The notes under the pieces were generated by a model. That model made no database searches, was not told the origin of the DNA, and saw only the letters and a program-made list of their open reading frames with translations. Of a stretch of DNA of 64,000 nucleotides, positions 27 through 64,000 are shown in pieces (the first letter of the stretch is position 1; the number at the start of each line of letters is the position of its first letter). This stretch comes from Akkermansia muciniphila (GTDB lineage: Bacteria; Verrucomicrobiota; Verrucomicrobiia; Verrucomicrobiales; Akkermansiaceae). The stretch is from positions 186,001 through 250,000 of the forward strand of contig NZ_PJKB01000002.1 of the NCBI RefSeq assembly GCF_002884975.1, written 5' to 3'. The position numbers and the translations under genes are program-made.

Positions 27-1706
27 TTATTTTTGCTTCTTGGCCCAGGAGTCCTTGAGGGCCACGGTGCGGTTGAAGACGGGGCGCTGGCCGGGTACGT
101 GGTCCCTGCGGTCCGCCACAAAGTAGCCGAGGCGTTCAAACTGGCAGCGGAATTCCGGTTCTGCGGCGCTCAGGGAGGGTTCCAGCTTGGCGTTTGTGAT
201 GACGGTCAGGGAGCCGGGATTCATGACGGAGAGGAAGCCTTCTTCCGCCGCATCCGGGTTTTCCTCCGTAAAGAGGCGGTCGTAAATGCGGATTTCACCG
301 TCCACGGCGTCCCTGGTGCTCACCCAGTGGATGGCCGCCCGGCACTGGATTCCTTCCGGAGGGTTGGAGCCGATGGTGCCGGGGATGTGTTCGCACAGGA
401 TTTCCGTGATGTTGCCGTCCGCATCCTGCCTGTAATCCGTGCAGGTAATGCAGTAGCCGCCGCGGAGGCGCACCGTGCGGCCCGGGGCCAGGCGGAAGTA
501 TTTCTTGGGCGGGTCCAGCATGAAGTCGTCCCGTTCAATCCAGACTTCCCTGGTGAGGGGAATCTGGCGGCTGCCTTCTTCCGGTTTTTCCGGGTTGTTC
601 AGCACTTCCGCCATTTCCTCCGCGTCTTCCGGCAGGGTGGTGATGGTGACCTTGAGGGGATTGAGCACGGCCATGCGGCGCGGCGCGTTGGCGTTCAGGT
701 CTTCCCTCACGCTGTATTCCAGCAGGGCCACGTCCGTGAAGCCGTTGAATTTGGTGATGCCTATAGTCTGGCAGAAGTTGCGGATGGCGGCGGGCGTGTA
801 GCCCCGGCGGCGCATGCCGGAGACGGTTGGCATCCGGGGATCGTCCCATCCGGTGACGTGGCCTTCCTGCACCAGCTGTAGCAGCTTGCGCTTGCTCATG
901 ACGGTGTAGGTGAGGTTGAGCCTGGCGAATTCCGTCTGGCGCGGGCGTGCCGGAACGGGGCAGTTTTCAATCACCCAGTCGTACAAGGGGCGGTGGTTTT
1001 CAAATTCCAGCGTGCAGAGGGAGTGGGTGATGTGCTCGTAGGCGTCTTCCAGCGGGTGCGCAAAGTCGTACATGGGGTAGATGCACCAGGTGTTGCCTGT
1101 GTTGTGGTGTTCCGCAAACATGATGCGGTACAGCACGGGATCACGCATGTTCATGTTGCTGGAGGCCATGTCTATTTTGGCGCGCAGAATGGCCTTTCCT
1201 TCCGGAATTTCCCCATTTTTCATGGCTTGGAAGCGTGCCAGGTTTTCCTCTACGGAACGGTTGCGGTATGGGGATTCCACTCCGGGCACGTTCACGTTGC
1301 CGCGCTGGGCGCGTATTTCCTCCACCGTCTGTTCATCCACGTAGGCCAGTCCCTTCTTGATGAGGGCTACGGCGCATTCATGGAAAAAGCCGAACATGTT
1401 GCTGGCAAAGAAGAGGTTCTTCCCCCAGTCAAAGCCCAGCCAGCGGATGTCTTCCTGGATGCTGTCCACATATTCCTGGTCTTCCTTGCTGGGGTTGGTA
1501 TCGTCAAAGCGCAGATGGCAGCGGGCGCCCGGGAATTCCTGGGCGATGCCGAAGTTGAGGCAGATGGATTTGGCATGTCCGATATGGAGGTAACCATTGG
1601 GTTCCGGGGGGAAGCGGGTTACCGGTGCCTGATGCTTGCCGGAGGCAAGGTCATCAGAAATCATATCGCGGATGAAATCTCGGCGTTCGGCAGGCTGCAA
1701 TGACAT
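27..1706 (-). CDS. glnS: Glutaminyl-tRNA synthetase
   Basis: Charges tRNA-Gln with glutamine in the cytoplasm (class I synthetase). The 559-residue product has the HIGH-type motif in PPEPNGYLHIGHAKS near residue 35 and the KMSKS-type motif as VMSKRKLL near residue 270, followed by the two beta-barrel anticodon-binding domains of the GlnRS family. Length is normal (E. coli about 554). The start MSLQPAERRDF at 1706 is chosen over an in-frame ATG at 1742. A promoter-like TTGCAG, 17 nt, TAGAAT ends 7 nt before 1706, and the 1742 start would place the -35 box inside the gene. The predicted mRNA is therefore almost leaderless. It stands alone, divergent from the gene to its right. Identity is secure; only the start is inferred. 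Confidence 0.96.
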   Translation of the reverse strand: MSLQPAERRDFIRDMISDDLASGKHQAPVTRFPPEPNGYLHIGHAKSICLNFGIAQEFPGARCHLRFDDTNPSKEDQEYVDSIQEDIRWLGFDWGKNLFFASNMFGFFHECAVALIKKGLAYVDEQTVEEIRAQRGNVNVPGVESPYRNRSVEENLARFQAMKNGEIPEGKAILRAKIDMASSNMNMRDPVLYRIMFAEHHNTGNTWCIYPMYDFAHPLEDAYEHITHSLCTLEFENHRPLYDWVIENCPVPARPRQTEFARLNLTYTVMSKRKLLQLVQEGHVTGWDDPRMPTVSGMRRRGYTPAAIRNFCQTIGITKFNGFTDVALLEYSVREDLNANAPRRMAVLNPLKVTITTLPEDAEEMAEVLNNPEKPEEGSRQIPLTREVWIERDDFMLDPPKKYFRLAPGRTVRLRGGYCITCTDYRQDADGNITEILCEHIPGTIGSNPPEGIQCRAAIHWVSTRDAVDGEIRIYDRLFTEENPDAAEEGFLSVMNPGSLTVITNAKLEPSLSAAEPEFRCQFERLGYFVADRRDHVPGQRPVFNRTVALKDSWAKKQK

Positions 1707-1713
1707 GGCGAAA

Positions 1714-1742
1714 ATTCTACTACCAAAATCCATCTTCTGCAA
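1714..1742 (-). promoter_or_regulatory. Promoter of glnS (leaderless type)
   Basis: On the minus strand TTGCAG, a 17-nt spacer and TAGAAT are followed by only 7 nt before the ATG at 1706. Transcription would start at or within a few bases of the start codon. Confidence 0.6.
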
Positions 1743-1960
1743 GTGTGTTCACTCGGAATGACATGAGGCGGAACGTGACGGATAAAAAGTGTTTTTTATC
1801 TTTTTCCGGAGGGCTGTGGTCATACAATTTAAATAATTTCCATACATGCATATTTGGGAATGTGCATTTTTCATGAAGATGGATAAAAAATCCCCAGTCT
1901 TTTACTAGGAAAAGACGCAAGCCCGCGCTGCGGGGTGTTTGCAGGATGCTGCGGAAAGGT

Positions 1961-1989
1961 TTGCTGGTTCGCAAAGTATTGTTTTTAAA
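1961..1989 (+). promoter_or_regulatory. Possible promoter of the zinc-ribbon/HEAT gene
   Basis: TTGCTG, 17 nt, TTTAAA. The predicted transcription start lies near 1996, leaving a leader of 20-60 nt before the candidate starts at 2017 and 2059. Confidence 0.4.
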
Positions 1990-2058
1990 AGGTATGGAAT
2001 AGGTTTAAAGTGGAGAATGGAACAGGTAAAAACCCTGCGGAGGGAGAAAGCTGTTGAA

Positions 2059-4040: not shown

Positions 4041-4068
4041 TTGCGGAGAAAAGCCAATTTACTAGAAT
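4041..4068 (+). promoter_or_regulatory. Promoter of the MFS sugar transporter (leaderless type)
   Basis: TTGCGG, 16 nt, TAGAAT, ending 9 nt before the ATG at 4078. The -10 hexamer is identical to that proposed for glnS. Confidence 0.5.
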
Positions 4069-4077: not shown

Positions 4078-6039
4078 ATGACAGACCAAGAAAACATGAA
4101 GGCCGCCGTTCCGGATGCGGCCAGGCGATACATGCGCTACCTCCTTATCATGGCCGGTTTGGGCGGCCTTCTTTATGGTGTGGACGTCGGCGTGATTGCT
4201 GCGGCGCTCCCCTACATTGAGCAGACGGCTGGCTTTAATCCCTCCCAGCTTTCCCAGGTGGTGGCGGCCGTGCTGTTCGGCAGCGTGCTTTCTTCCCTGT
4301 TTGCCGGGTATCTGGCCGACAAGTTGGGACGCAAGGCGCTGATTACCGTAGCCGCCGCCCTGTTCACGGTGAGTATTCCCGTGATCTGCCTGTCCCAGGA
4401 AGTGTTCGGCATCATGCTGCTGGGCCGTATTCTCCAGGGCGCCAGCGCCGGTATTGTAGGTGTGGTGGTTCCCCTGTACCTGGCTGAGTGTTTGAGCGCG
4501 GAATCCCGTGGCAAAGGGACGGGGATGTTCCAGTTCCTGCTGACGGTGGGCCTGGTGTTCGCCGCCGTAGTCGGCCTGCTTGCCGCCAGCTATGTGGGCG
4601 GTGTGGAAAATTCCGGCGCGAGCGAGGAAACGCTGACTTCCGCCAAGATTTTTGCGTGGCAGGCCATTTTCTGGGTTTGCGCCGTTCCCGGCCTTTTCCT
4701 GTTCTTCGGTTCCTTCCGTTTGAGCGAATCTCCCCGCTACCTGTTCCGCCGCGGTCGCAAGGATGAAGCCATGGCCGTGCTGGTGCGCAGTTACGGAGAT
4801 GTGCGCGCCAAGGAAGTGTTTGATGAAATGGTTCACATTGAAGAGGAAGAGAAGCAGAAGGCTGAGGAGCTCAAGAAGCAGAGCTCTTCCGGTGAATCCC
4901 TTCTTCAGCGCAAGTACGTATATCCCTTTGTTCTGGCGGTCCTTGTCCTGGCGTTTACGCAGGCTACGGGTATCAACTCCGTGCTGAATTACTCCGTGAA
5001 GGTATTCCAGCAGGCTGGCCTGGAAGGCACCACCGCCAACTGGGCGGACTTCACCATCAAGGTGGTGAACTGCTTGATGACCATCGTCGCCATGATCCTG
5101 GTGGACCGCAAGGGCCGCAAATTCCTCCTCAAGATCGGCACCGCCGGCATTGTGGTGGGTCTTCTCGGCACCGGCTTCCTGTTCAATAATGTGGAAAAAG
5201 CCCGCAAGGACGTGACCACGGACGTGGCCGCCCTGCTGGCCGCCCAGAGCCCCTCCGTCCAGAAGGAGTTTGAACAGGGCAAGGATGTGAGCTCCATCCG
5301 CACGCTTCAGCTGGAACGCACGCCTGATTCCCCCTTCGTCAAGGACCTGCTCGCCAAGAATGGCATGGGTGACAAGGATATCAACAGGATGCAGCTCATC
5401 ATTACCTATGACCAGCCGGAAGCCAATCCCGCCTGGTACCAGTTTCTGATGGGATCCTCCACCCAGCTTTCCGTAGTGGAGTTTGCCGAGCTGACCAAGG
5501 ATGCCAAGGACATCAAGAAGGAAGAGGACAAGGCTTCCCTGTCCCTGATCAAGGCCGTGCCTGATTCCACCAACAAGATGGTGGTGAACGGCAAGGACGG
5601 CTATGCCATGAAGCCTGTCTCCATCCTGAAGGCGGAACTGGGTGAAAAGCCGGATACCACCATGGGCTGGGGCGTGACCGCGTTCTTCATCATCTTCATT
5701 GCATTTTATGCTACCGGTCCCGGCGTGTGCGTCTGGCTGGCCCTGTCCGAACTGATGCCCGCCCGCATCCGCTCCAACGGCATGGCAATCGCGCTGCTGA
5801 TCAACCAGCTCGTTTCCACGGTGATTGCAGGTTCCTTCCTCCCGTGGGTGGGGAGCTGCGGCTACTCCGGCGTGTTCTTTACGCTGGGCGGCATTACGGT
5901 GCTGTACTTCATCACGGTGACCTTCTTCCTGCCTGAAACCAAGGGCCGCTCCCTGGAAGAGATTGAAGGCTACTTCACGACAGGCAAGATGCCGGAAGAT
6001 CTCAAGATGATCGGTGAAGGCATTGAAGCGGAGGAATAA
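4078..6039 (+). CDS. MFS sugar:proton symporter (sugar porter family) with large loop insertion
   Basis: Inner-membrane sugar uptake protein of the sugar porter family (XylE/GalP/GLUT relatives). Signature loops are visible: GYLADKLGRKA between helices 2 and 3, LSESPRYLFRRGR between 6 and 7, VDRKGRKFL between 8 and 9, and C-terminal PETKGRSLEEIE. The product is 653 aa where family members are usually 450-500. The excess is a hydrophilic segment at about residues 370-520, between the helix after VDRKGRK and the helices beginning TTMGWGVTAFFIIF. It is rich in Asp, Lys and Glu. Substrate cannot be read from sequence; hexose or xylose are the family norm. It has its own near-leaderless promoter and a strong terminator, so it is monocistronic. 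Confidence 0.9.
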   Translation: MTDQENMKAAVPDAARRYMRYLLIMAGLGGLLYGVDVGVIAAALPYIEQTAGFNPSQLSQVVAAVLFGSVLSSLFAGYLADKLGRKALITVAAALFTVSIPVICLSQEVFGIMLLGRILQGASAGIVGVVVPLYLAECLSAESRGKGTGMFQFLLTVGLVFAAVVGLLAASYVGGVENSGASEETLTSAKIFAWQAIFWVCAVPGLFLFFGSFRLSESPRYLFRRGRKDEAMAVLVRSYGDVRAKEVFDEMVHIEEEEKQKAEELKKQSSSGESLLQRKYVYPFVLAVLVLAFTQATGINSVLNYSVKVFQQAGLEGTTANWADFTIKVVNCLMTIVAMILVDRKGRKFLLKIGTAGIVVGLLGTGFLFNNVEKARKDVTTDVAALLAAQSPSVQKEFEQGKDVSSIRTLQLERTPDSPFVKDLLAKNGMGDKDINRMQLIITYDQPEANPAWYQFLMGSSTQLSVVEFAELTKDAKDIKKEEDKASLSLIKAVPDSTNKMVVNGKDGYAMKPVSILKAELGEKPDTTMGWGVTAFFIIFIAFYATGPGVCVWLALSELMPARIRSNGMAIALLINQLVSTVIAGSFLPWVGSCGYSGVFFTLGGITVLYFITVTFFLPETKGRSLEEIEGYFTTGKMPEDLKMIGEGIEAEE

Positions 6040-6187: not shown

Positions 6188-7249
6188 TCAGCGGGCGCCG
6201 TCCGCCTTTTTCCGGTTGGCCTGCCAGTTTTTAATGGCTTCCGCAATGGGAGGATACCCGTTTTTCATGTGGAAGTCATAGGCAGTCTGCCCGTCATCAT
6301 TACGCAGGGAGGGATTGGCGCCGTTGTTCATGAGGCAAACGGCTATTTCCGGAGAATTGCAGGCCATCAGCGGCGTCAGGCCGTCCACGTCCGGCTGGTT
6401 GGGGTCCGCTCCAGCCTTGATGAGAAGTTCAATGAGGGGGATGAGGCGTTCCGCCGGTTTTTCCTTGGTGCAGACCAGATGCAGGGGAGACTGCTTGCTT
6501 TCAAAGAAGCGCTCGTTGACATCGAATCCTGCTTTGATGAGACGTTCATAAATGGCCGGGGAAAGACTGAGGAAGCCTACGCCGCGCGCCTGGGCGTTCA
6601 ACCTGCGCTTGAGGTCCGGAGAACCCGCGTCCAGCAGGGCCAGGGCTATTTTTTCCTGTCCGGGGTCGGAATCATTGAGGGCGGCGGAGTACATGAACGG
6701 GGTGACTCCCCACGGTCCCGGCTGGTCCGGGTTGGCTCCGTGCTTGAGCAGGGCCTGCACCAGCGGCAGCCTGTCTTCCGCCGTGGAGTTCATGTAAAGG
6801 CCTGACAGGCACGCCCAGGTGAGGGGGGTGTCCCCCGGTTCCTTAGTGCCGTCATGCATGAAGATGGATTGGGCGTTTACGGGAGCGCCCGCTTCTATCA
6901 TCCGGATGGCCAGTTGATTCAATCCCAGGGCAATGCAGAGATGCAGGGGCGTATTGCGGTCCGGAGCCTGAAGCTGGAGGTTGCCGGTCTGCCGGAATTG
7001 CTCCAGCATCCGGTAGCACTGGAGGATGGAGTGGAATTCCTGTTGAGCCTCTCCGGCGAACATGATTTCCAGGGGCCAGGAGTCGTGCAGGAAGCGGAGG
7101 GTAAGGCCCAGCAGCTTTTCATTTGCCGCCTGGATTTCCTGTTTTTCCGCTTCCGTGAGCTGAATCGTCCTTTCCTCCGCTTCCGCCAGGGGGGCGGCTG
7201 CGACGGCTGCTGCGGACAGAAGCAGCATGGACCCTGTCATTTGTCTCAT
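6188..7249 (-). CDS. Exported ankyrin-repeat protein
   Basis: The 353-residue product begins with a signal peptide (MRQMTGSMLLLSAAAVAAAPLAEAEE, probable cleavage after about residue 25). An acidic helical stretch follows, then several ankyrin repeats, recognisable by phrases such as NTPLHLCIALGLNQLAIRMIEAGAPVN, ALLKHGANPDQPG, ELLIKAGADPNQPDVDGLTPLMAC and MNNGANPSLRNDDGQTAYDFHMKNG. Ankyrin repeats bind proteins; no enzymatic domain is seen. Periplasmic or outer-surface location is inferred from the signal peptide. Upstream on the minus strand GTGACA, 17 nt, TATAAG ends 6 nt before the ATG, supporting this start and independent transcription from hemL. The partner is unknown. Confidence 0.85.
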   Translation of the reverse strand: MRQMTGSMLLLSAAAVAAAPLAEAEERTIQLTEAEKQEIQAANEKLLGLTLRFLHDSWPLEIMFAGEAQQEFHSILQCYRMLEQFRQTGNLQLQAPDRNTPLHLCIALGLNQLAIRMIEAGAPVNAQSIFMHDGTKEPGDTPLTWACLSGLYMNSTAEDRLPLVQALLKHGANPDQPGPWGVTPFMYSAALNDSDPGQEKIALALLDAGSPDLKRRLNAQARGVGFLSLSPAIYERLIKAGFDVNERFFESKQSPLHLVCTKEKPAERLIPLIELLIKAGADPNQPDVDGLTPLMACNSPEIAVCLMNNGANPSLRNDDGQTAYDFHMKNGYPPIAEAIKNWQANRKKADGAR

Positions 7250-7255: not shown

Positions 7256-7284
7256 CTTATAGGGGAAGGAAAGTGGCCTGTCAC
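7256..7284 (-). promoter_or_regulatory. Promoter of the ankyrin gene (leaderless type)
   Basis: Minus strand GTGACA, 17 nt, TATAAG, 6 nt, ATG (7249). Confidence 0.55.
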
Positions 7285-9143: not shown

Positions 9144-10634
9144 ATGAACCGCCTGCATACATTGATTGACGGATTTCCCCGGGTGCGGATTCTCTGCATC
9201 GGGGACGTAATGCTGGACAAATTCCTGTACGGCAGCGTCAGCCGGATTTCCCCGGAGGCTCCGGTCCCCATCATGAAGATGGACCGGGAGACGCGCATGC
9301 TGGGCGGTGCGGGCAACGTGGTGCGCAACCTGTGCGCGCTGGGGTGCGGCACCACCTTTGTCAGCGTGGTGGGCAATGACGGCCATGGACGGCAGGTGAG
9401 GCGTTTTCTGGAAGAGACGTGCTGCGTTCCTGAGCTGGTGGAGTGCGAGGGGTATGAGACGACCGTGAAGATCCGTTTTGTGGCGGGCAAGCATCATTTG
9501 CTGCGGGCGGACCAGGAACAGCCGCTGCGGATGGTCCCTGAGCTTGCCGCCCGTTTTCTGGAACGGGTGGACGTCTGCCTGCCGGAGGCGGACCTGGTCC
9601 TTTTGTCTGATTACGGGAAGGGCCTGTTTGACGGGGAAACCACCCCCGCCGTGATCGCCCGGTGCCGGGCGGCGGGCAAGTCCGTGATCGTGGACCCGAA
9701 GGGGGCTGATTATTCCCGCTACAAGGGGGCCACGCTGGTGAAGCCGAATATGAAGGAGTTCCAGGAGGCGACGGGCGTGACGCTGGACCCCTCCGTGCCG
9801 GGCTGGGAACAGGCTGCCATGGAAGGGGCGCAGCGGCTGTTCACGGAGTTCGGCATTGAGAACCTGCTCGTCACCCTGAGCGAGCACGGCATGATTTTCA
9901 TTCCCTCTTCCCATCCCGCCGATTTTGTCTGCATTCCCACGGAGGCCCGCGAGGTTTTTGACGTGTCCGGCGCGGGTGATACCTCCCTGGCCAGCCTGGG
10001 CGCGGCGCTGGCCGCCGGGGCCACCGTGCCGGAAGCCCTGGTGGTGTCCAACGTGGCTGCCGGGATCGTGGTGGGCAAGTTCGGGACGGCCAGCGTGACC
10101 GGGACGGAGTTGAAAAAGGCCCTGGAGGAGAAAGCCAGGAAGGCATCCTCCTGGCATCACCGGAACAATATCCTGACGCCGGAGGCGGCAGCGGAGCTGG
10201 CGGACCGCTTCCGCCGGGAAAAGAAGGTGGTGGGTTTTACGAACGGCTGTTTTGACCTGCTGCACCTGGGGCACCTGCATTCCTTCATGAAGGCGCGGGA
10301 AGCGTGCGACGTGCTTTTTGTGGGGCTGAATACGGATGCCTCCATCAAGCGGCTGAAGGGGGAGGACAGGCCTATCAATAACGAGGAGATGCGTTCCCTG
10401 CTGCTGGCGTCCCTGGATTTCATCGATTACGTAGTGCCGTTTGACGAGGATACGGCCCTGCCGCTGATTGAAAGGCTGCGCCCGGACGTGATCGCCAAGG
10501 AAGGCTACCCGCTGGAACGCTGGCCGGAAGGGCAGTACGTGAAGTCTTACGGGGGGCAGGCTCTTGAGCTGCCGCGCCTGGAGGGATTTTCCTCCACCAA
10601 TATGATCAACCGCATGAAGAACAATCCGAAATGA
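9144..10634 (+). CDS. hldE: Bifunctional heptose-7-phosphate kinase / heptose-1-phosphate adenylyltransferase
   Basis: Supplies ADP-heptose for the LPS inner core. Residues 1 to about 320 form a PfkB/ribokinase domain (LGGAGNVVRNLCALG; catalytic DVSGAGDT near 273). Residues from about 355 form a nucleotidyltransferase domain beginning GFTNGCFDLLHLGHLHS, the HxGH signature, and ending GFSSTNMINRM. Length 496 aa is close to E. coli HldE (477). It is the first gene of a coupled operon; its TGA overlaps the gmhA ATG as ATGA. All four steps from sedoheptulose-7-phosphate to the ADP-sugar are covered by the three genes; the epimerase hldD is not in view. Confidence 0.96.
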   Translation: MNRLHTLIDGFPRVRILCIGDVMLDKFLYGSVSRISPEAPVPIMKMDRETRMLGGAGNVVRNLCALGCGTTFVSVVGNDGHGRQVRRFLEETCCVPELVECEGYETTVKIRFVAGKHHLLRADQEQPLRMVPELAARFLERVDVCLPEADLVLLSDYGKGLFDGETTPAVIARCRAAGKSVIVDPKGADYSRYKGATLVKPNMKEFQEATGVTLDPSVPGWEQAAMEGAQRLFTEFGIENLLVTLSEHGMIFIPSSHPADFVCIPTEAREVFDVSGAGDTSLASLGAALAAGATVPEALVVSNVAAGIVVGKFGTASVTGTELKKALEEKARKASSWHHRNNILTPEAAAELADRFRREKKVVGFTNGCFDLLHLGHLHSFMKAREACDVLFVGLNTDASIKRLKGEDRPINNEEMRSLLLASLDFIDYVVPFDEDTALPLIERLRPDVIAKEGYPLERWPEGQYVKSYGGQALELPRLEGFSSTNMINRMKNNPK

Positions 10635-11814: not shown

Positions 11815-11843
11815 TTTACACGGGAACGGATACCGTCTATAGG
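11815..11843 (+). promoter_or_regulatory. Promoter of the small exported protein gene (leaderless type)
   Basis: TTTACA, 17 nt, TATAGG, 9 nt, ATG (11853). Confidence 0.55.
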
Positions 11844-11852: not shown

Positions 11853-12218
11853 ATGAAAACCTTGCTACCCATTCTATCCATTGCATTGTGTTCCGGCGTA
11901 TGCGCCGTTGTCCAGGCCGCAGATGCGGAATTGCCCCAGGGGCTGGAGAAAAGAGAGGCCCGCGGGCGCATCACTTATGAGGGAGGCGACGGCTCCAGCT
12001 TTGAAAAGGCCGTCGTCATTGCCGGCGCAAAGAATTCCATGGATGGAGTTCCTGCCGAAAGTAAATGGCTTGAGAAAAAATACAGGAATTATGTGAAGCT
12101 CAAGCAGGCGCTGATGGAGCATGAAGGCAAATCCTTTGACGTGATCACGATTAAAACGAAAAAAGGCAAGGAAGTGGTTGTCTATTTCGATATTTCCGGC
12201 TTCTTCGGTAAAAATTAA
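11853..12218 (+). CDS. Small exported protein of unknown function
   Basis: A 121-residue product with a clear signal peptide (MKTLLPILSIALCSGVCAVVQAADAE, cleavage probably after AQA/ADA). The mature part of about 95 residues is charged. It includes YEGGDGSSFEKAVVIAGAKN and ends in a beta-rich FDVITIKTKKGKEVVVYFDISGFFG. No family is recognised; the GDGSSFEKAVVI phrase suggests a compact periplasmic fold. The start is fixed by the signal peptide and by a promoter whose -10 ends 9 nt upstream. A strong terminator follows at 12290-12327, so it is a single-gene unit. Confidence 0.8.
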   Translation: MKTLLPILSIALCSGVCAVVQAADAELPQGLEKREARGRITYEGGDGSSFEKAVVIAGAKNSMDGVPAESKWLEKKYRNYVKLKQALMEHEGKSFDVITIKTKKGKEVVVYFDISGFFGKN

Positions 12219-22533: not shown

Positions 22534-23520
22534 TTATTTGCCGTCTTGCGCCAGATGCAGCACGGCCTGGTGCACGCCCCGGACCACCTGCGCCATGCGG
22601 GCGTAGTCCAGCGTTTCCGGCAGGTCTCCGGGCTGGTGGTAGTTCGGGTTCCGGAAGAAGGAGGTGTCCGTGATCATGACGGCGGGCAGGTCTTTCGCCC
22701 AGAAGTTGCGGTGGTCGGAGAAGTCCATGCACATGCCCTTGATTTCCGGCAGGTTCAGGCGGACGGTGGGAAGGAAGGCCTGCATGTTTTTCTGAATGGT
22801 ACGCGCCAGCCTGACGCTGTCCCAGTTGCCGACGATGGCGATGAAGTCCCCCTTGTCCGGGTACAGGGCGCCCATGCCCGCGGCGGGATAGGACTGGCTG
22901 TTTTCCGTGTCCGAGAAGTAGCCGATCATTTCCAGGCAGATCATGGCTTTCACGCCTATCTGTTCCGTATAAAGTTTTTGGGCGTGCTGCGCGCTGCCCA
23001 TCTGTTCCGTACCGAAGTAGGGCGGTTCCTCATTGGCATACGCGATGAGTTCAATGGTGCAGTGGGGGGAGACGCCCTTGAGCATGCGTCCCAAAGCAAG
23101 CAATCCGGCCACGCCGCTGGCATTGTCGTCCGCTCCGGGGGTGTCCCCGCAGGTGTCGTAATGCGCGCCGACGATGATTCTTTTGGCGGATTTACCGGGG
23201 AAAACGGCGCTGACGTTGACGAAGGTGCGCTTGTCCGCCGTGAAAGGCTGGTACGTGACCGTGGCTCCCGAGTCCGCCAGGGACCGGGCGATGTATTGGA
23301 CCGCCCTGGCCTGGTTCTTTTCATAACCCGCCGGGCGCGGGTGGCAGTCTTTGGCCAGGTAGCGGACGTCCTTTTCCAGCTCCTGCTCCAGCCCGGGACG
23401 GACGGCAGCGACGGAAGCGCCGCCGTCCGCGGGGGTGGTGCAGTGGGAAATGATGCAGCCCGTGGATACGGTGAGGATAGCCAGGGCGGAAAACAGAGAG
23501 AGATAAACCCCGAGTTTCAT
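22534..23520 (-). CDS. M28-family zinc aminopeptidase lipoprotein
   Basis: Exported metallo-aminopeptidase of peptidase family M28. The 328-residue product has a signal peptide ending in a plausible lipobox (ILTVSTGC near residue 22). Metal-site motifs follow the family order: IVGAHYDT, then PGADDNASGVAGLLALGRML, YANEEPPYFGTEQMGS, and a late DHRNFWAKDLPAVMITDTSF. This order fits a two-zinc centre, probably trimming peptides outside the inner membrane. The promoter reads TTGTCA, 17 nt, TATAAA, 6 nt, ATG, one of the clearest leaderless-type arrangements here. It is convergent with the lolD-like gene. Confidence 0.93.
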   Translation of the reverse strand: MKLGVYLSLFSALAILTVSTGCIISHCTTPADGGASVAAVRPGLEQELEKDVRYLAKDCHPRPAGYEKNQARAVQYIARSLADSGATVTYQPFTADKRTFVNVSAVFPGKSAKRIIVGAHYDTCGDTPGADDNASGVAGLLALGRMLKGVSPHCTIELIAYANEEPPYFGTEQMGSAQHAQKLYTEQIGVKAMICLEMIGYFSDTENSQSYPAAGMGALYPDKGDFIAIVGNWDSVRLARTIQKNMQAFLPTVRLNLPEIKGMCMDFSDHRNFWAKDLPAVMITDTSFFRNPNYHQPGDLPETLDYARMAQVVRGVHQAVLHLAQDGK

Positions 23521-23526: not shown

Positions 23527-23555
23527 TTTATAGCAATACGCATCAGGCGTGACAA
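23527..23555 (-). promoter_or_regulatory. Promoter of the M28 peptidase (leaderless type)
   Basis: Minus strand TTGTCA, 17 nt, TATAAA, 6 nt, ATG (23520). Both hexamers are near consensus. Confidence 0.7.
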
Positions 23556-24825: not shown

Positions 24826-24854
24826 TTGCAATCATGCGGGTTGTTGTGTAGCTT
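24826..24854 (+). promoter_or_regulatory. Promoter of cdaA (leaderless type)
   Basis: TTGCAA, 17 nt, TAGCTT, 7 nt, ATG (24862). It helps choose 24862 over ATG 24877 and an upstream TTG. Confidence 0.55.
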
Positions 24855-24861: not shown

Positions 24862-25653
24862 ATGTGGGACTGGATTATGATCAAGGATGCGCTCCGGGCG
24901 ATCGTTGAAATTTTCATCCTGTGGGTATTCCTGTACCAGATTTACCGCGCTTTCCACGCGACGCGCGGCGCGCGCATCATGGTGGGGCTGTTCGCCTGTT
25001 TCCTGGCCCTGGTGGTGCTGGCTTTTTTCTTCCAGTTAAACGTGATTTCATGGATACTGACGCGCATTTTCGCCCCCGGCCTGGCGCTGGCGCTGGTGGT
25101 GATTTTCCAGCCGGAGCTGCGCGTGGGGCTGGCGAAGCTGGGCAGTCATCCGTTTTTCTCCTCCTTCGCCAAACTCCAGCGGGTGGACTTCCTGGACAAT
25201 TTCTGCAAGGCGGTGAGCAAGCTTTCCAACCAGCGGTTCGGCGCCCTGTTCGCCTTTGAGCGGAGCATCAGCATGAAGCCCATTGAGGATTCCGGCGTGA
25301 AGCTGGACGCCATTTTTTCTCCTGAACTGGCCCTGACGATTTTCCATACCAAGACTGCCCTGCATGACGGGGGCGTGGTGATTTCCGGCGACCGCATTTC
25401 CGCCGCCGCCTGCGTGTTCCCGGTCTCCCAGAAGGAGATGAGCGACCGCACCCTGGGGCTGCGCCACCGGGCGGGCGTGGGCATGTCGGAGGAGAGCGAC
25501 TGCGTGGTAGTGGTGGTGTCCGAGGAAACGGGGGCGATCGCCCTGGCCGTGGGCGGCAAGCTGGAACGCAACCTCACGCCGGAACAGTTGAAGGGCCGTC
25601 TTGAAGAACTGCTGAATATTTCTTCTTCCAATGAAAAAACTGCTATTGCTTAA
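24862..25653 (+). CDS. cdaA: Membrane diadenylate cyclase (c-di-AMP synthase), CdaA type
   Basis: Makes cyclic di-AMP from two ATP. The 263-residue product has three N-terminal membrane helices (IVEIFILWVFLYQIY; IMVGLFACFLALVVLAFFFQL; FAPGLALALVVIFQ). The linker ELRVGLAKLGSHPFF and the DAC domain follow (NQRFGALFAFERSISMKPI onward). The two catalytic motifs are present: LHDGGVVI at about 166-173 and LGLRHRAGVGMSEESD, with RHR at 201-203. The usual DGA is DGG here (169-171). The promoter pattern and the CdaA-like N-terminal spacing favour ATG 24862. The next gene overlaps by 23 nt and encodes a CdaR-like membrane stub. Confidence 0.94.
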   Translation: MWDWIMIKDALRAIVEIFILWVFLYQIYRAFHATRGARIMVGLFACFLALVVLAFFFQLNVISWILTRIFAPGLALALVVIFQPELRVGLAKLGSHPFFSSFAKLQRVDFLDNFCKAVSKLSNQRFGALFAFERSISMKPIEDSGVKLDAIFSPELALTIFHTKTALHDGGVVISGDRISAAACVFPVSQKEMSDRTLGLRHRAGVGMSEESDCVVVVVSEETGAIALAVGGKLERNLTPEQLKGRLEELLNISSSNEKTAIA

Positions 25654-30187: not shown

Positions 30188-30231
30188 GGAGGGGATATTA
30201 GCGGTTTGGCGCGGGAATTCCATCTTTCCAT

Positions 30232-30260
30232 TTGAAAAAAGCGCCCGCATCCGTCATGAT
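30232..30260 (+). promoter_or_regulatory. Promoter of rph (leaderless type)
   Basis: TTGAAA, 17 nt, CATGAT, 7 nt, ATG (30268). The same interval holds TAATAT (minus strand, 30195-30200), 7 nt before the divergent phosphodiesterase start. Confidence 0.5.
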
Positions 30261-36971: not shown

Positions 36972-37763
36972 TTATTCAGGCCGGTTTTCCGGGGTTTCCG
37001 CCGGGTAGTGGACCTGCATCAGCGTGAGGCCGTCCGGCGGGGCGCAGAACGGGCTTTTATCCTGCGGGCGCGGAGAATTGATGAGGCGCGCCAGCTCGTC
37101 CAGCGTGATTTTACCCCTGGCCGCTTCATGGGCCGCGCCTGCCATGAGGCGCACCATCTTGTAGAGGAAGCCCGTTCCGGTGAAGGTAATGAAGACGTGG
37201 TCTCCCTTTTGCTCCACTTCCGCCTGCGTGATCGTGCGGCGGAAGTGGTCTTCCGGGATGGGGCGCGGTTCATTGCCGCGCAGGGCCGCAAAAGCCCTGA
37301 AGTCATGCGTTCCCGTGAAAAGGCGCACGGCTCGCTCCAGAGTTTCCACGCTCCAAGCCAGCGGACGGTGCCAGGCCAGCCCTGCGTCAAACGGACTGAG
37401 GATGCGCGCGCGGGAGATGCAGTAGCGGTAGGTTTTTCCGGCGGCGCTGAACCGGGCATGGAAGCCGGGGGCCGCGTATTCCGCATGCATGATCCGGACG
37501 GTATGGGGCAGGCGCGTGTTGAGGGCGGTGGGCCATTTGTCCGCCGGAATGCGGTGGGTGTCCGGAGCGTCCACATGGAAAACCTGGCCCAGGGCATGCA
37601 CGCCGGCATCCGTCCTGCCGGAACCGTGGATGCGGACTGTAGAGCCGAAGAGGGCGGAAAAGGCGCGTTCCAGGACATCCTGCACAGTACGGCCCCCCGG
37701 CTGGCTTTGCCAGCCCAGGTACGGGCGTCCATCGTACGCGGCGGTGAAGCGGATGCGGGGCAT
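36972..37763 (-). CDS. truA: tRNA pseudouridine(38-40) synthase
   Basis: Isomerises uridines 38-40 in the tRNA anticodon arm. The 263-residue product has RIRFTAAYDGRPYLGWQSQPGGRTVQDVLE and the catalytic Asp in the signature RIHGSGRTDAGVHALGQ. ALNTRLPHTVRI and FTGTGFLYKMVRLMAG follow, all TruA features. ATG 37763 is chosen over the in-frame ATG at 37799 because the family starts at RIRFTAAYDG and because TTGCCA, 17 nt, CACAAT ends 7 nt upstream. The phage-derived cassette starts divergently 115 nt away. Confidence 0.95.
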   Translation of the reverse strand: MPRIRFTAAYDGRPYLGWQSQPGGRTVQDVLERAFSALFGSTVRIHGSGRTDAGVHALGQVFHVDAPDTHRIPADKWPTALNTRLPHTVRIMHAEYAAPGFHARFSAAGKTYRYCISRARILSPFDAGLAWHRPLAWSVETLERAVRLFTGTHDFRAFAALRGNEPRPIPEDHFRRTITQAEVEQKGDHVFITFTGTGFLYKMVRLMAGAAHEAARGKITLDELARLINSPRPQDKSPFCAPPDGLTLMQVHYPAETPENRPE

Positions 37764-37770: not shown

Positions 37771-37799
37771 ATTGTGTTGGAACGGTCCGGTTTTGGCAA
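37771..37799 (-). promoter_or_regulatory. Promoter of truA (leaderless type)
   Basis: Minus strand TTGCCA, 17 nt, CACAAT, 7 nt, ATG (37763). Confidence 0.5.
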
Positions 37800-48079: not shown

Positions 48080-48697
48080 ATGGAACAAATGACACGGGTC
48101 CAGCAGAACACGCTGAGAAAAATCGTGGAGGCGGCCATTGAACTGATGAGTGAAAAAGGGTTCCACCGCGTCAGCGTTCAGGAAGTGGGGAAAAAGGCGG
48201 GGATTTGTGAAAAGACCGTCTTCCGCTACTTTGCCACCAAAAAGTCCCTGCTGGATGAAATCATCCGGTACCGGGAATATGCCAGCGAACTGAAAAGGGA
48301 ATTCGAGCACAGGAAAACGTGGGACCTGGCGCATGACCTGAAACTGGCCGCACGCCTGTACTTCCAGGCGACGAAGGCCAAAAGGGACGCCTTCCGGGCC
48401 TACTTGAGCGCGCTGGATTCCGTGGATACGAACGGAGACGATTTTTTGCGCGACCCGCGGGAGCTTCATTCCTTCCTGTGCGATTACATGAGCGCCATGC
48501 AGGAAAAAGGAAAGGTCAGGGAGGGGGATGTGCGGCTCATGGTGCGCGCCTTTGTCAATACGCTGCACGGCTACATGCTGATGTACTGCCTGAATGACGA
48601 CAGCAAGGCGTGGCAGGACAAGGTGGCTTCCATGAAGCTGACCATTGGCCTGTTTATTCAGGGATTTTCCCGGCAATGCACTTCCTGCGGCGCATGA
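48080..48697 (+). CDS. TetR-family regulator of the efflux operon
   Basis: A 205-residue repressor-like protein. The N-terminal helix-turn-helix reads TLRKIVEAAIELMSEKGFHRVSVQEVGKKAGICEKTVFRYFATKKSLLDEII, a standard TetR DNA-binding domain. The C-terminal ligand domain (about residues 70-205) is helical and contains several Cys and Met near its end (MLMYCLNDDSK; RQCTSCGA). It is the first gene of the operon; its stop overlaps the next ATG (ATGA). The palindrome just before its start suggests it represses itself and the pump. ATG 48089 is an alternative start. The inducer is unknown. Confidence 0.93.
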   Translation: MEQMTRVQQNTLRKIVEAAIELMSEKGFHRVSVQEVGKKAGICEKTVFRYFATKKSLLDEIIRYREYASELKREFEHRKTWDLAHDLKLAARLYFQATKAKRDAFRAYLSALDSVDTNGDDFLRDPRELHSFLCDYMSAMQEKGKVREGDVRLMVRAFVNTLHGYMLMYCLNDDSKAWQDKVASMKLTIGLFIQGFSRQCTSCGA

Positions 48698-55305: not shown

Positions 55306-56517
55306 TTACCTTGCGGTCACGGGTTCCGGTGGTGACGGCTGTTTCTTCTCCTGCGCGGATGCAGCTTTCACTTCCGGGGAGGGCGGAGTACACAGAAAAC
55401 GGCCCAGCAGGTCCAGCGTGGCTTTCACATCCTTCAGGTCCGCCAGTTCCCGCGGGGAGTGCATGTAGCGGATGGGCGGTCCCAGAAAGGCTGCCTGGCC
55501 GCCGTAAAGCTTGACGGGGACAAAATTGGCCATGCCGGGAGGGAAGGTAGCGTCCTTCTGCAACGGAATACCGTGCTCTTCCGCCAGTTGGAGGAGTTGC
55601 GCGGTGATGGGCTGGTAAAAGATCTTGTCATGGGTGAAGAGGACGGGGCCTTTTCCCATGGCCTGGCGGGTCAGCCTTCCGTTTTCTTCACGGGACGGAA
55701 GGTCATCGAGCTGGACGGTATCCAGCGTACAGTCAATGACAATGGCCAGCTTTGGGCGGTTCTTTTCACAATACGCCGTGGCGCCGATGAGGCCTATTTC
55801 CTCCTGGGAGGAGGAAAGCAGCGTCACGTGGTATTTCAGGTCCTTTTGATGTTGGGACAGGAAAAAGGCCAGTTCCGTCAGCATGAAGGAATTCAGGCGG
55901 CAGTCCAGGCCGTGGGCCATCAGGCGCGAACCGTGCAGCAATTCCGGCCTGGTGGCGGGAACGCCGCGCTGGCCTGTGCTCAGGCCCATGTTCCGGGCCT
56001 CCTCCGCACTGGACGCTCCCACGTCAAACAGGACGTATTCCGTCCCTGCCGGGAGCGGGGTGCGGTTCAACCACCAGCCGGGCACTGCGCCCGCAAAGGC
56101 GGTGACGGGACCATGCGCCCCGTCAAAGCGGTAGGGGCAGGAAAGCATGGACTGGAAATCCGGGAACCCGATGGGCTTCACCTTCAGGAAACCGTTGGGT
56201 GTGATGTCTGCAATGACCACGCCCACTTCATCCGCGTGGGCGTCTATCAACAGTTCCGGGGCGTCCGGGTCCGGGCTGCGGAATGTTGCCCAGGCATTTT
56301 GATGCGCGTCCGTGCCGGAACTGTCCGCCAGGGGCGCTATGTGCTTCAGCCAGAATTGCTGGAAAGGGACTTCCGCTCCGGAGGAGGACGGAATGCCGAG
56401 CAGGGACGTCAGCCGGTCCATGGACTGGTCGCTGAAAGGCGGCGCATCTTCCGGCACGGAGGCCATGCAAAGGTTCAAAAAAATCAGGGGGAGCAGTAGG
56501 ACGCGGATAGCGGGCAT
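55306..56517 (-). CDS. Exported M42-family metallo-aminopeptidase
   Basis: Glutamyl/deblocking aminopeptidase family M42 (tetrahedral peptidases). The 403-residue product has the metal motifs LLIDAHADEVGVVIADIT, the Asp in HGLDCRLNSF, catalytic EE in SSSQEEIGLIGA, and the final RYMHSPRELADL. Unlike the usual cytoplasmic enzymes it starts with a hydrophobic signal peptide (MPAIRVLLLPLIFLNLCMA), implying export. ATG 56517 is preferred over ATG 56553 because it begins the signal peptide and because TTGCTT, 18 nt, TATGGT ends 6 nt upstream. The C terminus has a Pro/Lys/Glu-rich tail. It is monocistronic. Confidence 0.92.
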   Translation of the reverse strand: MPAIRVLLLPLIFLNLCMASVPEDAPPFSDQSMDRLTSLLGIPSSSGAEVPFQQFWLKHIAPLADSSGTDAHQNAWATFRSPDPDAPELLIDAHADEVGVVIADITPNGFLKVKPIGFPDFQSMLSCPYRFDGAHGPVTAFAGAVPGWWLNRTPLPAGTEYVLFDVGASSAEEARNMGLSTGQRGVPATRPELLHGSRLMAHGLDCRLNSFMLTELAFFLSQHQKDLKYHVTLLSSSQEEIGLIGATAYCEKNRPKLAIVIDCTLDTVQLDDLPSREENGRLTRQAMGKGPVLFTHDKIFYQPITAQLLQLAEEHGIPLQKDATFPPGMANFVPVKLYGGQAAFLGPPIRYMHSPRELADLKDVKATLDLLGRFLCTPPSPEVKAASAQEKKQPSPPEPVTAR

Positions 56518-56523: not shown

Positions 56524-56553
56524 ACCATAGCATGAGGAAGGAAGGGGAAGCAA
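56524..56553 (-). promoter_or_regulatory. Promoter of the M42 peptidase (leaderless type)
   Basis: Minus strand TTGCTT, 18 nt, TATGGT, 6 nt, ATG (56517). Confidence 0.5.
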
Positions 56554-59396: not shown

Positions 59397-59425
59397 TTGG
59401 TGGAGCGCGTAGGATATGGCAGAAT
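59397..59425 (+). promoter_or_regulatory. Promoter of the octahaem-TPR cytochrome (leaderless type)
   Basis: TTGGTG, 17 nt, CAGAAT, 9 nt, ATG (59435). Confidence 0.45.
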
Positions 59426-59434: not shown

Positions 59435-61714
59435 ATGTCCAAGCCCGAGTCCACTGATGTTTCCGTGAACAAATCCTCCATGAAAAAATGGGTGGTTCTC
59501 CTTATTGTTCTTGGTGCGCTGATTGGGCTGGGTACGGTGATGAAGGCATGGATGGACCGGCGCTCCGGCGCGGAAGCCCAGCCGGCCGTTTTCTCCGGCG
59601 GCAGTGAGCACTGGGACCAGAATGAAGTTCCCATCTCCATGCAGTGCGGCGCCTGCCATGAAAAGGAATTTCGGCAGTGGGCCGGTTCGGACCACGCCTG
59701 GGCGTTCCGCAAGCTTGGGGACCAGTGGGAGTCTGAGGCGTTCCATAACATGAAGCTGGACGCCCACGGAAGCATTCTCCAATTTTCCACGGATGCCCAA
59801 GGCCGCATGGTGCATGACGGGCAGTCCAATACTGCCTGGCGAGCGGAATGGGCTACGGGAAGGATTCCGCTGGTGCAGTACCTGGTGCCCGCAAAGGACG
59901 GAGGCTACCATACCCTGAGCGCTGCGTGGGATGTAAACCGCAAGGAGTGGTTTGACATTTTCGGCAAGGATGCCCGGCAGCCCGGAGACTGGGGGCACTG
60001 GACGGGCCGCGGCATGAACTGGAACACGCAGTGCGCATGGTGCCACATGTCCCTGTTCCATAAGAACTATGATCCGGTCAAGGACCGTTACGCTTCCACA
60101 TGGACGGAACCCGGAGTGACCTGCATCCAGTGCCATGGTCCCCTGCTGGACAAGCCGGAGGCGGGAACGGGATGCATGATTTCCACCAAAAACAAGCTGA
60201 CGCCGGAGCAAATTCACGACAACTGCGCATCCTGCCATGCCCGGCGGGATGAATTCGATCACGATTTTGCCATAGGTGACCGTTTTGACAATCATTTCCA
60301 GCTCGTGCTTCCTGTGCAGCCCGGCGTCTTCTGGCCCAACGGCATGCAGAGGGATGAGGATTATTGTGAAACGGGCCTGCGCCTGAGCCGCATGGGTAAG
60401 GCGGGCGTCACCTGCCTGGACTGCCATGATCCGCATACGGGAACGCTGAAGCTTCCGCAGGAGGATAATACGCTCTGTCTGAGGTGCCATGGGACTGGGG
60501 AGGCTGTGAACGGGGTGAAAGCCCCTATTATTGACATATCCAAACATACGCCGTGCCCCCAGTCCAGCATGGGCGCCCGCTGTGTGGAATGCCACATGCC
60601 GGAAAGCCTGTACATGGCCCGCGACCCACGCCGGGACCACTCCTTCAATTCTCCTGATCCTCTCCTGAGCGTGGAGCTGGGCATTCCCAATGCCTGCACC
60701 ATGTGCCACAGGGAAAAGAGCAATGAATGGGCCGCGGAAGCGGTGGAAAAATATTATGGGTCCAATCCCAAGATGGCGCAGTACAGGGACCGTACCAGGG
60801 CCGTGCAGCGCGCCTATGAAGGGCGGGAGGATGTGCTGCCGCTGCTGATGGAGTGCTTCAAGCGGGAGGAAGTGGGCGCCTGGCGCGCCACTCTGCTGGA
60901 TTTGATGGATGCCTGGGCGCATGAACCGGCTGTCCAGGAACTGGCCGCTGCGGCGGTCAAGGATCCGGATGCCCTGACGCGCGCCGCTGCCGCCAAGGTA
61001 ATGGGCCGTGCGGGCAATCCCGCCGCGGGCAAATTACTTAATGACCCGTTCAAGGTTGTCCGCCTGCAAGCGGAATGGGCCCTCCGGGATTCCCTGCCGC
61101 CGGATAGCCCGGCCATGAAGGAGCTGACCGCCGCCGCGCTTCATCAGGCGGACCAGCCTTCCGGAGCGATGAAGCTGGCCCAGATAGCCATCAGCCGCAA
61201 GGATGCGAAGGCCGCGGAACAATGGTTTGCCAAGGCTCTGAAATGGGATGCCACGTCCTCCGTAGTGCACCGGGATTACGCCGTTTTCCTGGCCTCCCAG
61301 GGGCGCAGCCCGGAAGCGGTGGAGCAGATGAAGGAGGCCGTCCGCCTGGCTCCGAAGGATGCCAACCTGTGGTACCTGCTGGGGCTGGGGCAGATTGAGA
61401 ATAATGATGAGCCGGGAGCTCTGGAATCCTTTAATGCGGCCCTGAAAATAGAGCCCTCTTTCATCCGCGCCCTGTTTAACCGCGCCCTGCTTAATGAAAA
61501 GGTGGGACGGCTGGAGCAAGCGCTCCAGGACCTGGAGAATTGTTCCTCCCTGGACAAGGAAAATGCGGACATTCCGTTCACGCTGGCCGTGATGCTTTAC
61601 CGCAACGGCCGTTACCGTGACGCAGCGGCAGCGGCAGCAGAAGCCCTGCGCCGTGATCCGGGGCATGCCCAGGCCCGTCAAATTCTGGAATCGGCTTCTC
61701 GACATGGGAGATAG
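59435..61714 (+). CDS. Octahaem c-type cytochrome with C-terminal TPR repeats
   Basis: Membrane-anchored periplasmic multihaem cytochrome. The 759-residue product has one N-terminal helix (WVVLLIVLGALIGLGTVM) that probably stays as an anchor. Eight CXXCH haem motifs follow, with first cysteines at residues 71, 200, 230, 264, 327, 348, 383 and 421. The first, CGACHEKEFRQWAGSDHA, matches the cytochrome c554-type pattern, as does the uneven spacing. After residue about 430 come HEAT-like helices (VKDPDALTRAAAAKVMGRAG) and TPRs at about 600-755 (LWYLLGLGQIENNDEPGALESFNAALKIEP; AALRRDP-type ends). The redox role is unknown; electron transfer, or reduction of nitrogen or sulfur oxyanions, are possibilities. 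No CXXCK motif was seen. Confidence 0.93.
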   Translation: MSKPESTDVSVNKSSMKKWVVLLIVLGALIGLGTVMKAWMDRRSGAEAQPAVFSGGSEHWDQNEVPISMQCGACHEKEFRQWAGSDHAWAFRKLGDQWESEAFHNMKLDAHGSILQFSTDAQGRMVHDGQSNTAWRAEWATGRIPLVQYLVPAKDGGYHTLSAAWDVNRKEWFDIFGKDARQPGDWGHWTGRGMNWNTQCAWCHMSLFHKNYDPVKDRYASTWTEPGVTCIQCHGPLLDKPEAGTGCMISTKNKLTPEQIHDNCASCHARRDEFDHDFAIGDRFDNHFQLVLPVQPGVFWPNGMQRDEDYCETGLRLSRMGKAGVTCLDCHDPHTGTLKLPQEDNTLCLRCHGTGEAVNGVKAPIIDISKHTPCPQSSMGARCVECHMPESLYMARDPRRDHSFNSPDPLLSVELGIPNACTMCHREKSNEWAAEAVEKYYGSNPKMAQYRDRTRAVQRAYEGREDVLPLLMECFKREEVGAWRATLLDLMDAWAHEPAVQELAAAAVKDPDALTRAAAAKVMGRAGNPAAGKLLNDPFKVVRLQAEWALRDSLPPDSPAMKELTAAALHQADQPSGAMKLAQIAISRKDAKAAEQWFAKALKWDATSSVVHRDYAVFLASQGRSPEAVEQMKEAVRLAPKDANLWYLLGLGQIENNDEPGALESFNAALKIEPSFIRALFNRALLNEKVGRLEQALQDLENCSSLDKENADIPFTLAVMLYRNGRYRDAAAAAAEALRRDPGHAQARQILESASRHGR

Positions 61715-62474: not shown

Positions 62475-62502
62475 TCTGCAATACCTTTAATGTTCTGGAA
62501 CG

Positions 62503-63183: not shown

Positions 63184-63194
63184 AAATGGAACGG

Positions 63195-63219
63195 CGTGCC
63201 TGTAAGGCACGGTGTTTTT
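63195..63219 (+). terminator. Intrinsic terminator after the second TetR gene
   Basis: CGTGCCT pairs with AGGCACG around a 3-nt loop, followed by GTG and five T residues. It lies between tetR and the convergent thiE. Confidence 0.8.
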
Positions 63220-63220
63220 C

Positions 63221-63865
63221 CTATATTTCTCCCAGCGTCCTTCTTAGCGCCGTTACTGCCCCCGTGATGTCCGGGTGCGTGAGCAGCCAAGAGACGATAA
63301 CGACCCGTGCCGCGCCTGCTTTCAGAACGTTGGGAAGGGTGTCCCCGTTGATGCCGCCAATGCAGAAGACCGGGAACTCTTCCGAAAGCTGCCGCCGCAC
63401 GTTTGCAATGTCTTTCAGTCCGATGGCCGGTCTCCCCGGTTTGGTGCCGGTGGGGAACAAGGGGCCGAATCCGATGTAGTCCGCCTGCTCCCGGAACGCT
63501 TCCAGAGCCTGTTCCGGGCTGTGCGTGGAACGCCCGATGATGCAGTCCGGTCCCAGCATGGCCCGGACAGGCGCCAGGGGACCGTCGTCCTGTCCCAGAT
63601 GAACGCCGTCCGCTCCGGTGCTCAGGGCTATTTCAGGATAGTCGTTGATGATGAAAAGGCAGCCGTGTTTGCGGCACAGGGGGGCAAGCTGGCTCCCCAG
63701 CTGTTCAATACGTTCCGGAGCACAGTTTTTCGCCCGGAGCTGGAGGATGCCCAAACCGCCAGCCAGCAATTTTTCCGTAACGGAAAGCATTTGGTTTTCA
63801 GCAGTGTATCCCATATCCACAATGCCGTACAGGCGGCAGGGCGAGAGGCGTTCCTTCCTGTTCAT
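63221..63865 (-). CDS. thiE: Thiamine-phosphate synthase
   Basis: Couples the pyrimidine and thiazole halves of thiamine. The 214-residue product has LYGIVDMGYT, GLGILQLRAKNCAPE, LFIINDYPEIALSTGADGVHLGQDDGPL, IIGRSTHSPEQALEAFREQADYIGFGPLFPTGTKPG and VFCIGGINGDTLPNVLKAGAARVVIVSWL, the full ThiE pattern. ATG 63865 sits 8 nt after TACAAT in the promoter TTGCCG, 16 nt, TACAAT. No thiamine riboswitch lies in the short space before it. No other thi genes are adjacent. Confidence 0.96.
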   Translation of the reverse strand: MNRKERLSPCRLYGIVDMGYTAENQMLSVTEKLLAGGLGILQLRAKNCAPERIEQLGSQLAPLCRKHGCLFIINDYPEIALSTGADGVHLGQDDGPLAPVRAMLGPDCIIGRSTHSPEQALEAFREQADYIGFGPLFPTGTKPGRPAIGLKDIANVRRQLSEEFPVFCIGGINGDTLPNVLKAGAARVVIVSWLLTHPDITGAVTALRRTLGEI

Positions 63866-63873
63866 GGAAGGGA

Positions 63874-63901
63874 ATTGTACCGGATAAAATCATCCCGGCA
63901 A
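63874..63901 (-). promoter_or_regulatory. Promoter of thiE (leaderless type)
   Basis: Minus strand TTGCCG, 16 nt, TACAAT, 8 nt, ATG (63865). It lies back to back with the pyrD promoter. Confidence 0.6.
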
Positions 63902-63915
63902 GACGCTTCCCATTC

Positions 63916-63943
63916 TTGACCCTAATGGAAGGTGTAGTATACT
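63916..63943 (+). promoter_or_regulatory. Promoter of the gene entering the right edge (leaderless type)
   Basis: TTGACC, 16 nt, TATACT, 9 nt, GTG (63953). Both hexamers are near consensus. Confidence 0.65.
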
Positions 63944-63952
63944 CTCCGCATC

Positions 63953-64000
63953 GTGTCACCCGCCTTATATTCCGCCGCCAAAAGTGTATTGTTCCAAATG
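63953..64000 (+). CDS. pyrD: Start of a probable class 2 dihydroorotate dehydrogenase (partial)
   Basis: Only 16 codons are in the window, opening from GTG with SPALYSAAKSVLFQM. That resembles the N-terminal membrane-associated helix of class 2 PyrD proteins, where a similar LFQLDPE phrase follows. The enzyme oxidises dihydroorotate with quinone in pyrimidine synthesis. The frame is supported by the near-consensus promoter ending 9 nt upstream. With so little sequence the assignment is tentative. Confidence 0.45.
   Translation, partial: MSPALYSAAKSVLFQM

Follow-up and report, generated by a model that had tools for sequence, protein, structure and literature searches.

Does the ribosome of Akkermansia muciniphila routinely meet mRNAs that begin at the start codon itself? 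The question is raised by a 64-kb stretch of its DNA (referred to, at its full length, as the window), in which an earlier note had listed twelve genes whose -35/-10 pairs end only 6-9 nt before the start codon and had concluded that leaderless initiation is a routine mode. RNA synthesis begins some 7 nt downstream of a -10 box, so that gaps of 6-7 nt place position +1 on or beside the A of the ATG, and a gap of 9 nt leaves 2-3 nt. The proposed mechanism is a sigma-70-type promoter with its -10 box fixed 6-9 nt upstream of the start codon, at which RNA polymerase would start at the A of the ATG or 1-3 nt before it and make a leaderless mRNA; initiation would then dispense with Shine-Dalgarno (SD) pairing, the 5'-terminal AUG being read directly. 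Our answer, to which we attach a probability of about 0.9, is that a sizeable minority of first genes, here and in the congeners sampled, use a leaderless mode of this kind. The promoter architecture is observed; where the mRNAs really begin, and how the ribosome initiates on them, we infer from it.

Promoters at twelve start codons of the window

All twelve -35/-10 pairs are present at the genes named for them, with the gaps and spacers that had been claimed (spacers of 17 nt in eight, 16 nt in three and 18 nt in one). The start codon is ATG for eleven of these genes and GTG for pyrD. Scored with a fixed sigma-70-type matrix, every site outscores almost every single-base shuffle of the 75 nt that precede its gene: the fraction reaching its score runs from 0 to 0.0205 (2000 shuffles each), the weakest against their own shuffles being those at 11853 (0.0205) and at the cytochrome gene (0.0115). 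Pfam families match the earlier gene names for all ten named genes checked. The gene at 11853 (121 aa) has no Pfam family, and pyrD is truncated by the end of the window. Neither a tRNA nor an Rfam family reaching its gathering score was found in the window.

The sites were compared with those of two congeners, G017 and G004, the former the closer relative. The glnS promoter (TTGCAG-17-TAGAAT, 1714-1742, minus strand) ends 7 nt from the ATG at 1706 and occupies the same position in both. Conserved in both as well are the promoters of the MFS transporter gene (TTGCGG-16-TAGAAT, 4041-4068, plus strand, 9 nt to the ATG at 4078), the M28 peptidase gene (TTGTCA-17-TATAAA, 23527-23555, minus strand, 6 nt to the ATG at 23520), rph (TTGAAA-17-CATGAT, 30232-30260, plus strand, 7 nt to the ATG at 30268) and truA (TTGCCA-17-CACAAT, 37771-37799, minus strand, 7 nt to the ATG at 37763; the G004 spacer is identical at 11 of 17 positions). 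At cdaA (TTGCAA-17-TAGCTT, 24826-24854, plus strand, 7 nt to the ATG at 24862) the site is conserved in G017 and has a gap of 6 nt in G004. The ankyrin-repeat gene promoter (GTGACA-17-TATAAG, 7256-7284, minus strand, 6 nt to the ATG at 7249) has both boxes identical (6/6) in G004, where only 8 of 17 spacer positions are. The promoter at 11815-11843 (TTTACA-17-TATAGG, plus strand, 9 nt to the ATG at 11853) keeps its gap and its complete -35 box (6/6) in both congeners, with a -10 box matching at 3/6 in G017 (score 5.6) and 4/6 in G004 (score 7.2). That of the multihaem cytochrome/TPR gene (TTGGTG-17-CAGAAT, 59397-59425, plus strand, 9 nt to the ATG at 59435) shifts to a gap of 10 nt in G017 (score 6.8) and G004 (score 5.2). 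The M42 peptidase gene has the weakest promoter of the twelve (TTGCTT-18-TATGGT, 56524-56553, minus strand, 6 nt to the ATG at 56517); it is absent from the G017 ortholog, the sole one scored, the G004 stretch having yielded no M42 ortholog.

The remaining two promoters belong to a divergent pair. That of thiE (TTGCCG-16-TACAAT, 63874-63901, minus strand) ends 8 nt from the ATG at 63865 and is conserved in both congeners; that of pyrD (TTGACC-16-TATACT, 63916-63943, plus strand) ends 9 nt from the GTG at 63953 and, read by eye, has the counterpart TTGACC-16-TACACT, again with a gap of 9 nt and a GTG, in G017 and G004. The two leaderless-type promoters stand back-to-back (63866-63952) with their -35 boxes 14 bp apart; both, with their short gaps, fit in the 87 bp between the start codons, and G017 and G004 have this layout in common.

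Of 47 genes called in the window, 35 have ATG candidates and are first in their transcription unit, meaning that the preceding gene is divergent or, if on the same strand, more than 60 nt away. Eleven of the 35 have a promoter scoring at least 6 at gaps 6-9, where 2.0 are expected from control gaps of 16-39. Ten of the eleven come from the earlier list (thiE and pyrD, at the window's end, are not among them) and the eleventh is a phosphodiesterase-family gene with a candidate promoter (30195-30228, minus strand) whose -10 box, TAATAT, lies 7 nt from an ATG at 30187; no -35 box was assigned to it and the coding model favoured an ATG 36 nt upstream. Gaps of 11-12 nt had also been claimed for hldE, the efflux tetR and the thioredoxin gene. 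At gaps 10-13 two sites score at least 5, one at gap 12 before the start at 9144 and one at gap 11 before that at 48080; they may belong to genes of this trio, and a third was not found.

Start-proximal promoters in the genome and the genus

The wider sample comprises 944 kb, about a third of this 2.9-Mb, seven-contig assembly, with 666 genes and 1115 ATG candidates in their 5' parts. Genes were called with our own hexamer script, and the figure of 666 in 944 kb implies that some genes are missed and that some 'first' genes are perhaps not first. The -10 and -35 boxes were scored with fixed matrices, their probabilities set from the sigma-70 consensus; these replaced unsupervised learning of the -10 motif by EM, which, run on the full set of ATG candidates, settled on a pattern unlike a promoter and was rejected. 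Simple counting of TANNNT gives a modest peak at gap 7 (33/1041), which becomes sharper once the -35 box is added.

Gaps 6-9 hold 90 matches, from 85 genes, against 29.0 expected from gaps 15-39 (3.1-fold, p about 1e-19 with matches treated as independent), and gaps 10-12 hold 42 against 21.7. Among first-gene ATG candidates, 77 of 752 match at gaps 6-9, compared with 17.0 after shuffling (sd 4.5, maximum 29; 60 single-base shuffles). The 678 ATG candidates outside the window contribute 16, 28, 10 and 16 matches at gaps 6, 7, 8 and 9 and then 9, 11 and 12 at gaps 10-12; over gaps 13-39 the mean is 5.6 per gap, with a lone spike of 14/678 at gap 26. The peak is reproduced at thresholds 4, 6 and 8 (864 kb, 1038 candidates), and nothing comparable appears at 4043 internal in-frame ATGs or at 1433 out-of-frame upstream ATGs: at threshold 8 the in-frame candidates reach 7.7-25 matches per thousand at each of gaps 6-9, the out-of-frame upstream ATGs 0.7-2.8. 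The test that the earlier note had set for itself, whether -10 boxes at 6-9 nt outnumber controls across the genome, is thus passed outside the window and in the pooled sample, over about a third of the genome. The distribution of gaps has an apparent dip at 8 (21, 35, 13 and 21 matches at gaps 6-9 in the window's genome, G000; 9, 5, 3 and 11 in the congener G051), as it has in other congeners.

Many genes, then, have a promoter near enough to the start codon that, judged from its position, the mRNA should begin at that codon or within a few bases of it. The architecture goes with being first: in the 944 kb it is found at 76 of 375 first genes, at 4 of 204 genes that follow a same-strand neighbour by 60 nt or less, and at 5 of 31 genes at the edge of a stretch; five congeners, pooled, have it at 67 of 318 first genes and 7 of 102 closely spaced ones. 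It also goes with ATG. The ratio of first-gene matches over control gaps is 3.2 for ATG, 1.65 for GTG and 0.75 for TTG (3.9, 1.4 and 1.1 in the congeners). When the intergenic DNA before 370 first genes is searched for strong promoters (score at least 8), 34 matches lie at gaps 6-9, against 2.2 in shuffles; 34% of the whole excess over shuffles falls at gaps 6-9 and 48% at gaps 6-13. For G051 the share at gaps 6-9 is 45%; the total excess in G015 is too small for a share to be given. The same excess at gaps 6-9 is absent from E. coli and from G034, a more distant member of the phylum, where most of the excess lies at 30-159. After background subtraction about 17% of first genes have the architecture (the largest excess over the thresholds tried); such fractions are noisy in small sets, running from 0.10 to 0.37 for congener operon genes (n 5 to 45). 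The excess and its conservation support the claim that leaderless initiation is routine, provided that 'routine' is taken to mean a sizeable minority, which amounts to some 17% of first genes and to roughly one third of the recognisable promoter excess upstream of such genes.

Twenty-nine relatives were searched, of which 18 are assigned to the same genus. Among named records, which may omit those nearest to this genome, glnS is most similar (70% identity) to that of Akkermansia sp. MAGs, and the glnS locus of the congener G018 has 7.8% of its 31-mers in common with L005, a named Akkermansia sp. locus. In the five congeners sampled, the excess at gaps 6-9 is 5.8-fold (G017), 3.5-fold (G004), 2.8-fold (G015), 6.3-fold (G013) and 4.7-fold (G051), each with p below 1e-3, matches being treated as independent. 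Relatives at the level of the order give 5.5-fold (G020, 14 matches from 8 genes), 2.4-fold (G023, p 0.02) and 1.7-fold (G025, p 0.07), and those at the level of the class 4.0-fold (G046) and 1.7-fold (G066, p 0.22); 200 kb of E. coli K-12 has 2 matches against 7.2 expected (0.28) and G034 has 1 against 7.0 (0.14). The pattern at gaps 6-9 is thus firm in the congeners sampled and uneven beyond them. In G046 (loci L235-L244), contrary to the first-gene pattern of the window's genome, 6 of the 11 genes concerned follow a gene on the same strand by 60 nt or less.

Orthologs of eleven of the twelve genes (pyrD excepted) were aligned relative to the ATG. In the ten from G004, identity is 82% in the -10 box and 85% in the -35 box, as compared with 58% in the spacer, 63% in the 12 nt upstream and 73% between the -10 box and the ATG, so that with spacers of 16-18 nt and boxes conserved above them these behave as sigma-70-type promoters; nine of the ten score at least 6 at gaps 6-9, the exception being the cytochrome gene. 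The eleven from the closer G017 have boxes hardly more conserved than the spacer (-10 82%, -35 89%, spacer 78%), and eight keep a score of at least 6 at gaps 6-9, 11853 falling to 5.6, the cytochrome promoter lying at gap 10 and that of M42 being lost. Both sets (80 kb from G017 and 80 kb from G004) come entirely from the region syntenic with the window and are therefore not independent of it. The G015 and G013 stretches begin at glnS, and most of the twelve genes have no ortholog there.

The glnS gene was surveyed more widely, the highest-scoring promoter at each locus being chosen among all in-frame starts with gaps of 4-12. At 17 congeneric loci (the 18th congener, G016, has no proper glnS match) that promoter lies at gap 7 in 14, gap 8 in 2 and gap 5 in 1 (a weak one, 5.6), always before an ATG; the 16 at gaps 7-8 score at least 8.4, and their spacers differ freely. 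The glnS loci of two named Akkermansia sp. agree with this. Taken together, these alignments indicate that selection maintains the promoter sites in relatives. Beyond the genus no clear pattern emerges for the glnS promoter; four distant relatives (L147, L148, L034 and L039) have a TTGAC-like -35 box followed by a poor -10 box at gaps 8-11, perhaps reflecting a diverged -10 consensus. Plasmid records were also searched with glnS: only 2 of 209 reach 60% identity, and no named Akkermansia is among the best 15 of the 209.

Shine-Dalgarno scarcity and other readings of the promoters

That SD sequences are mostly absent had also been claimed, and it holds in this genome, where SD-like 4-mers at 4-10 nt remain near background: they precede 4% of leaderless-type genes (control 5%, n=85), 10% of other first genes (control 7%) and 12% of operon genes (control 7%). 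The corresponding figures in E. coli are 40% of other first genes (control 5%) and 63% of operon genes (control 2%). One congener, G017, has the motif at 5 of 10 operon genes (control 15%), unlike the others, in a small set. The 16S region nevertheless ends GGATCACCTCCTTTCT and retains CCTCC, and an S1 protein with six S1 domains and IF3 are present. Operon-internal starts are G-poor upstream and weakly folded (mean -3.1 kcal/mol at -18..+21 against -10.0 at +120..+159). The base at -1 before ATG is C in 66% of them, 67% of leaderless-type genes and 52% of other first genes (called starts, 944 kb). A pyrimidine at -1 was considered as a mark of transcription starting at the A, since it is found in 67 of 71 cases at gaps 6-9 and in 111 of 167 at gaps 10-39; it was dropped as poor evidence because operon-internal starts share it (C or T in 86%).

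A broader proposal for the genus, which we hold tentatively and think somewhat likelier to fail than to stand, is that Akkermansia retains a canonical anti-SD, S1 and IF3 but has largely abandoned SD selection: about one in three first-gene promoters would produce leaderless mRNAs and most of the others short SD-less leaders, and downstream operon genes would start on unstructured, G-poor sequence with C before the ATG. If that were so, the retained anti-SD would serve something besides start selection.

Could real promoters serve true starts that lie farther downstream, the transcripts having ordinary short leaders and the ATG beside the -10 box being a chance or upstream codon? Start codons here are predicted and the calls are uncertain: the coding model prefers a start downstream of the earlier call in five of the twelve genes (MFS by 18, ankyrin by 21, 11853 by 33, glnS by 42 and M42 by 51 nt) and one 12 nt upstream for rph, and it differs from the ATG in 30 of the 71 first-gene cases whose best promoter lies at gap 6-9. 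In the other 41, however, that ATG is the coding model's own start. The peak, moreover, is tied to in-frame ATG more than to GTG or TTG and not to out-of-frame upstream ATGs, G004 preserves the distance to the ATG, as do glnS loci whose spacers have diverged, and SD motifs are barely above background at the starts called for other genes, all of which makes downstream starts highly unlikely. Chance, acting through a degenerate consensus fitted to AT-richer intergenic sequence, deserves next to no weight as an account of the set: boxes such as CATGAT, CACAAT and GTGACA are indeed degenerate, there are several gaps and starts to choose from at each first gene, and gap 26 has its spike, but the shuffled, internal-ATG, other-gap and E. 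coli controls contradict it, as does the conservation of boxes over spacer in G004. Individual sites, such as that of M42, could still be chance matches.

It might also be that leaderless transcripts are made but that most of the protein comes from leadered mRNA, transcribed from a second promoter farther upstream. Bacterial genes often have secondary promoters, and the promoter excess reaches over gaps 10-79 too; set against this, SD frequency is near background in the start classes and it is the start-proximal promoter that is conserved, and we regard this arrangement as unlikely. Leaderless initiation at a sizeable minority of first genes is the reading that we retain. If correct, it has practical consequences: start codons in this much-studied gut genus can be assigned with the help of a conserved promoter mark, and the pattern suggests that Akkermansia expression constructs need not rely on SD sites. 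A single genus would also allow tests of how starts are selected in the absence of an SD by ribosomes whose anti-SD is intact.

Comparison with known systems

Cappable-seq of mouse cecum placed 10% of A. muciniphila transcription starts at annotated gene starts (886 high-confidence positions, replicate 1), as against 0.4% for E. coli, and likewise identified -35 and -10 elements (PMC4782308). That study measured 5' ends, and the available part of its text holds no analysis of promoter distance, gene context or other members of the genus. Titles and abstract openings in the open-licence literature (Akkermansia or Verrucomicrobia with leaderless; Akkermansia with Shine-Dalgarno) contain no description of the promoter pattern across the genus.

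The promoter sign itself was used by Zheng et al. (2011), who took TANNNT around 12 bp upstream (counted from its first T) as indicating leaderless, TA-led genes in 953 bacterial genomes, with shuffled controls (PMC3160421). Here, too, a -10-like signal at about that distance from the start exceeds shuffles (single-base ones, as distinct from the dinucleotide shuffles of that paper), and the leaderless-type genes, in keeping with that way of defining them, have no SD signal above control. The -35 box, on which our scoring also draws, is unused in the available text of that paper, and its main text contains neither 'Verrucomicrobia' nor 'Akkermansia'. In Deinococcus-Thermus, a different phylum, a -10 box adjoining the ORF and leaderless mRNA are common, as here, and were bench-tested (PMC12340547). 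A. muciniphila has been named as an SD-scarce species with CCUCC, and A. glycaniphila as having 4% SD (PMC10783764). The 16S region here has CCTCC, and SD motifs are near background by our 4-mer count; the class of that paper is defined by a different measure, stable pairing in under 5.5% of mRNAs. A link between Akkermansia and leaderless promoters is absent from its available text. Leaderless expression is thus known in kind, and what is added here is a quantified promoter pattern in the congeners sampled.
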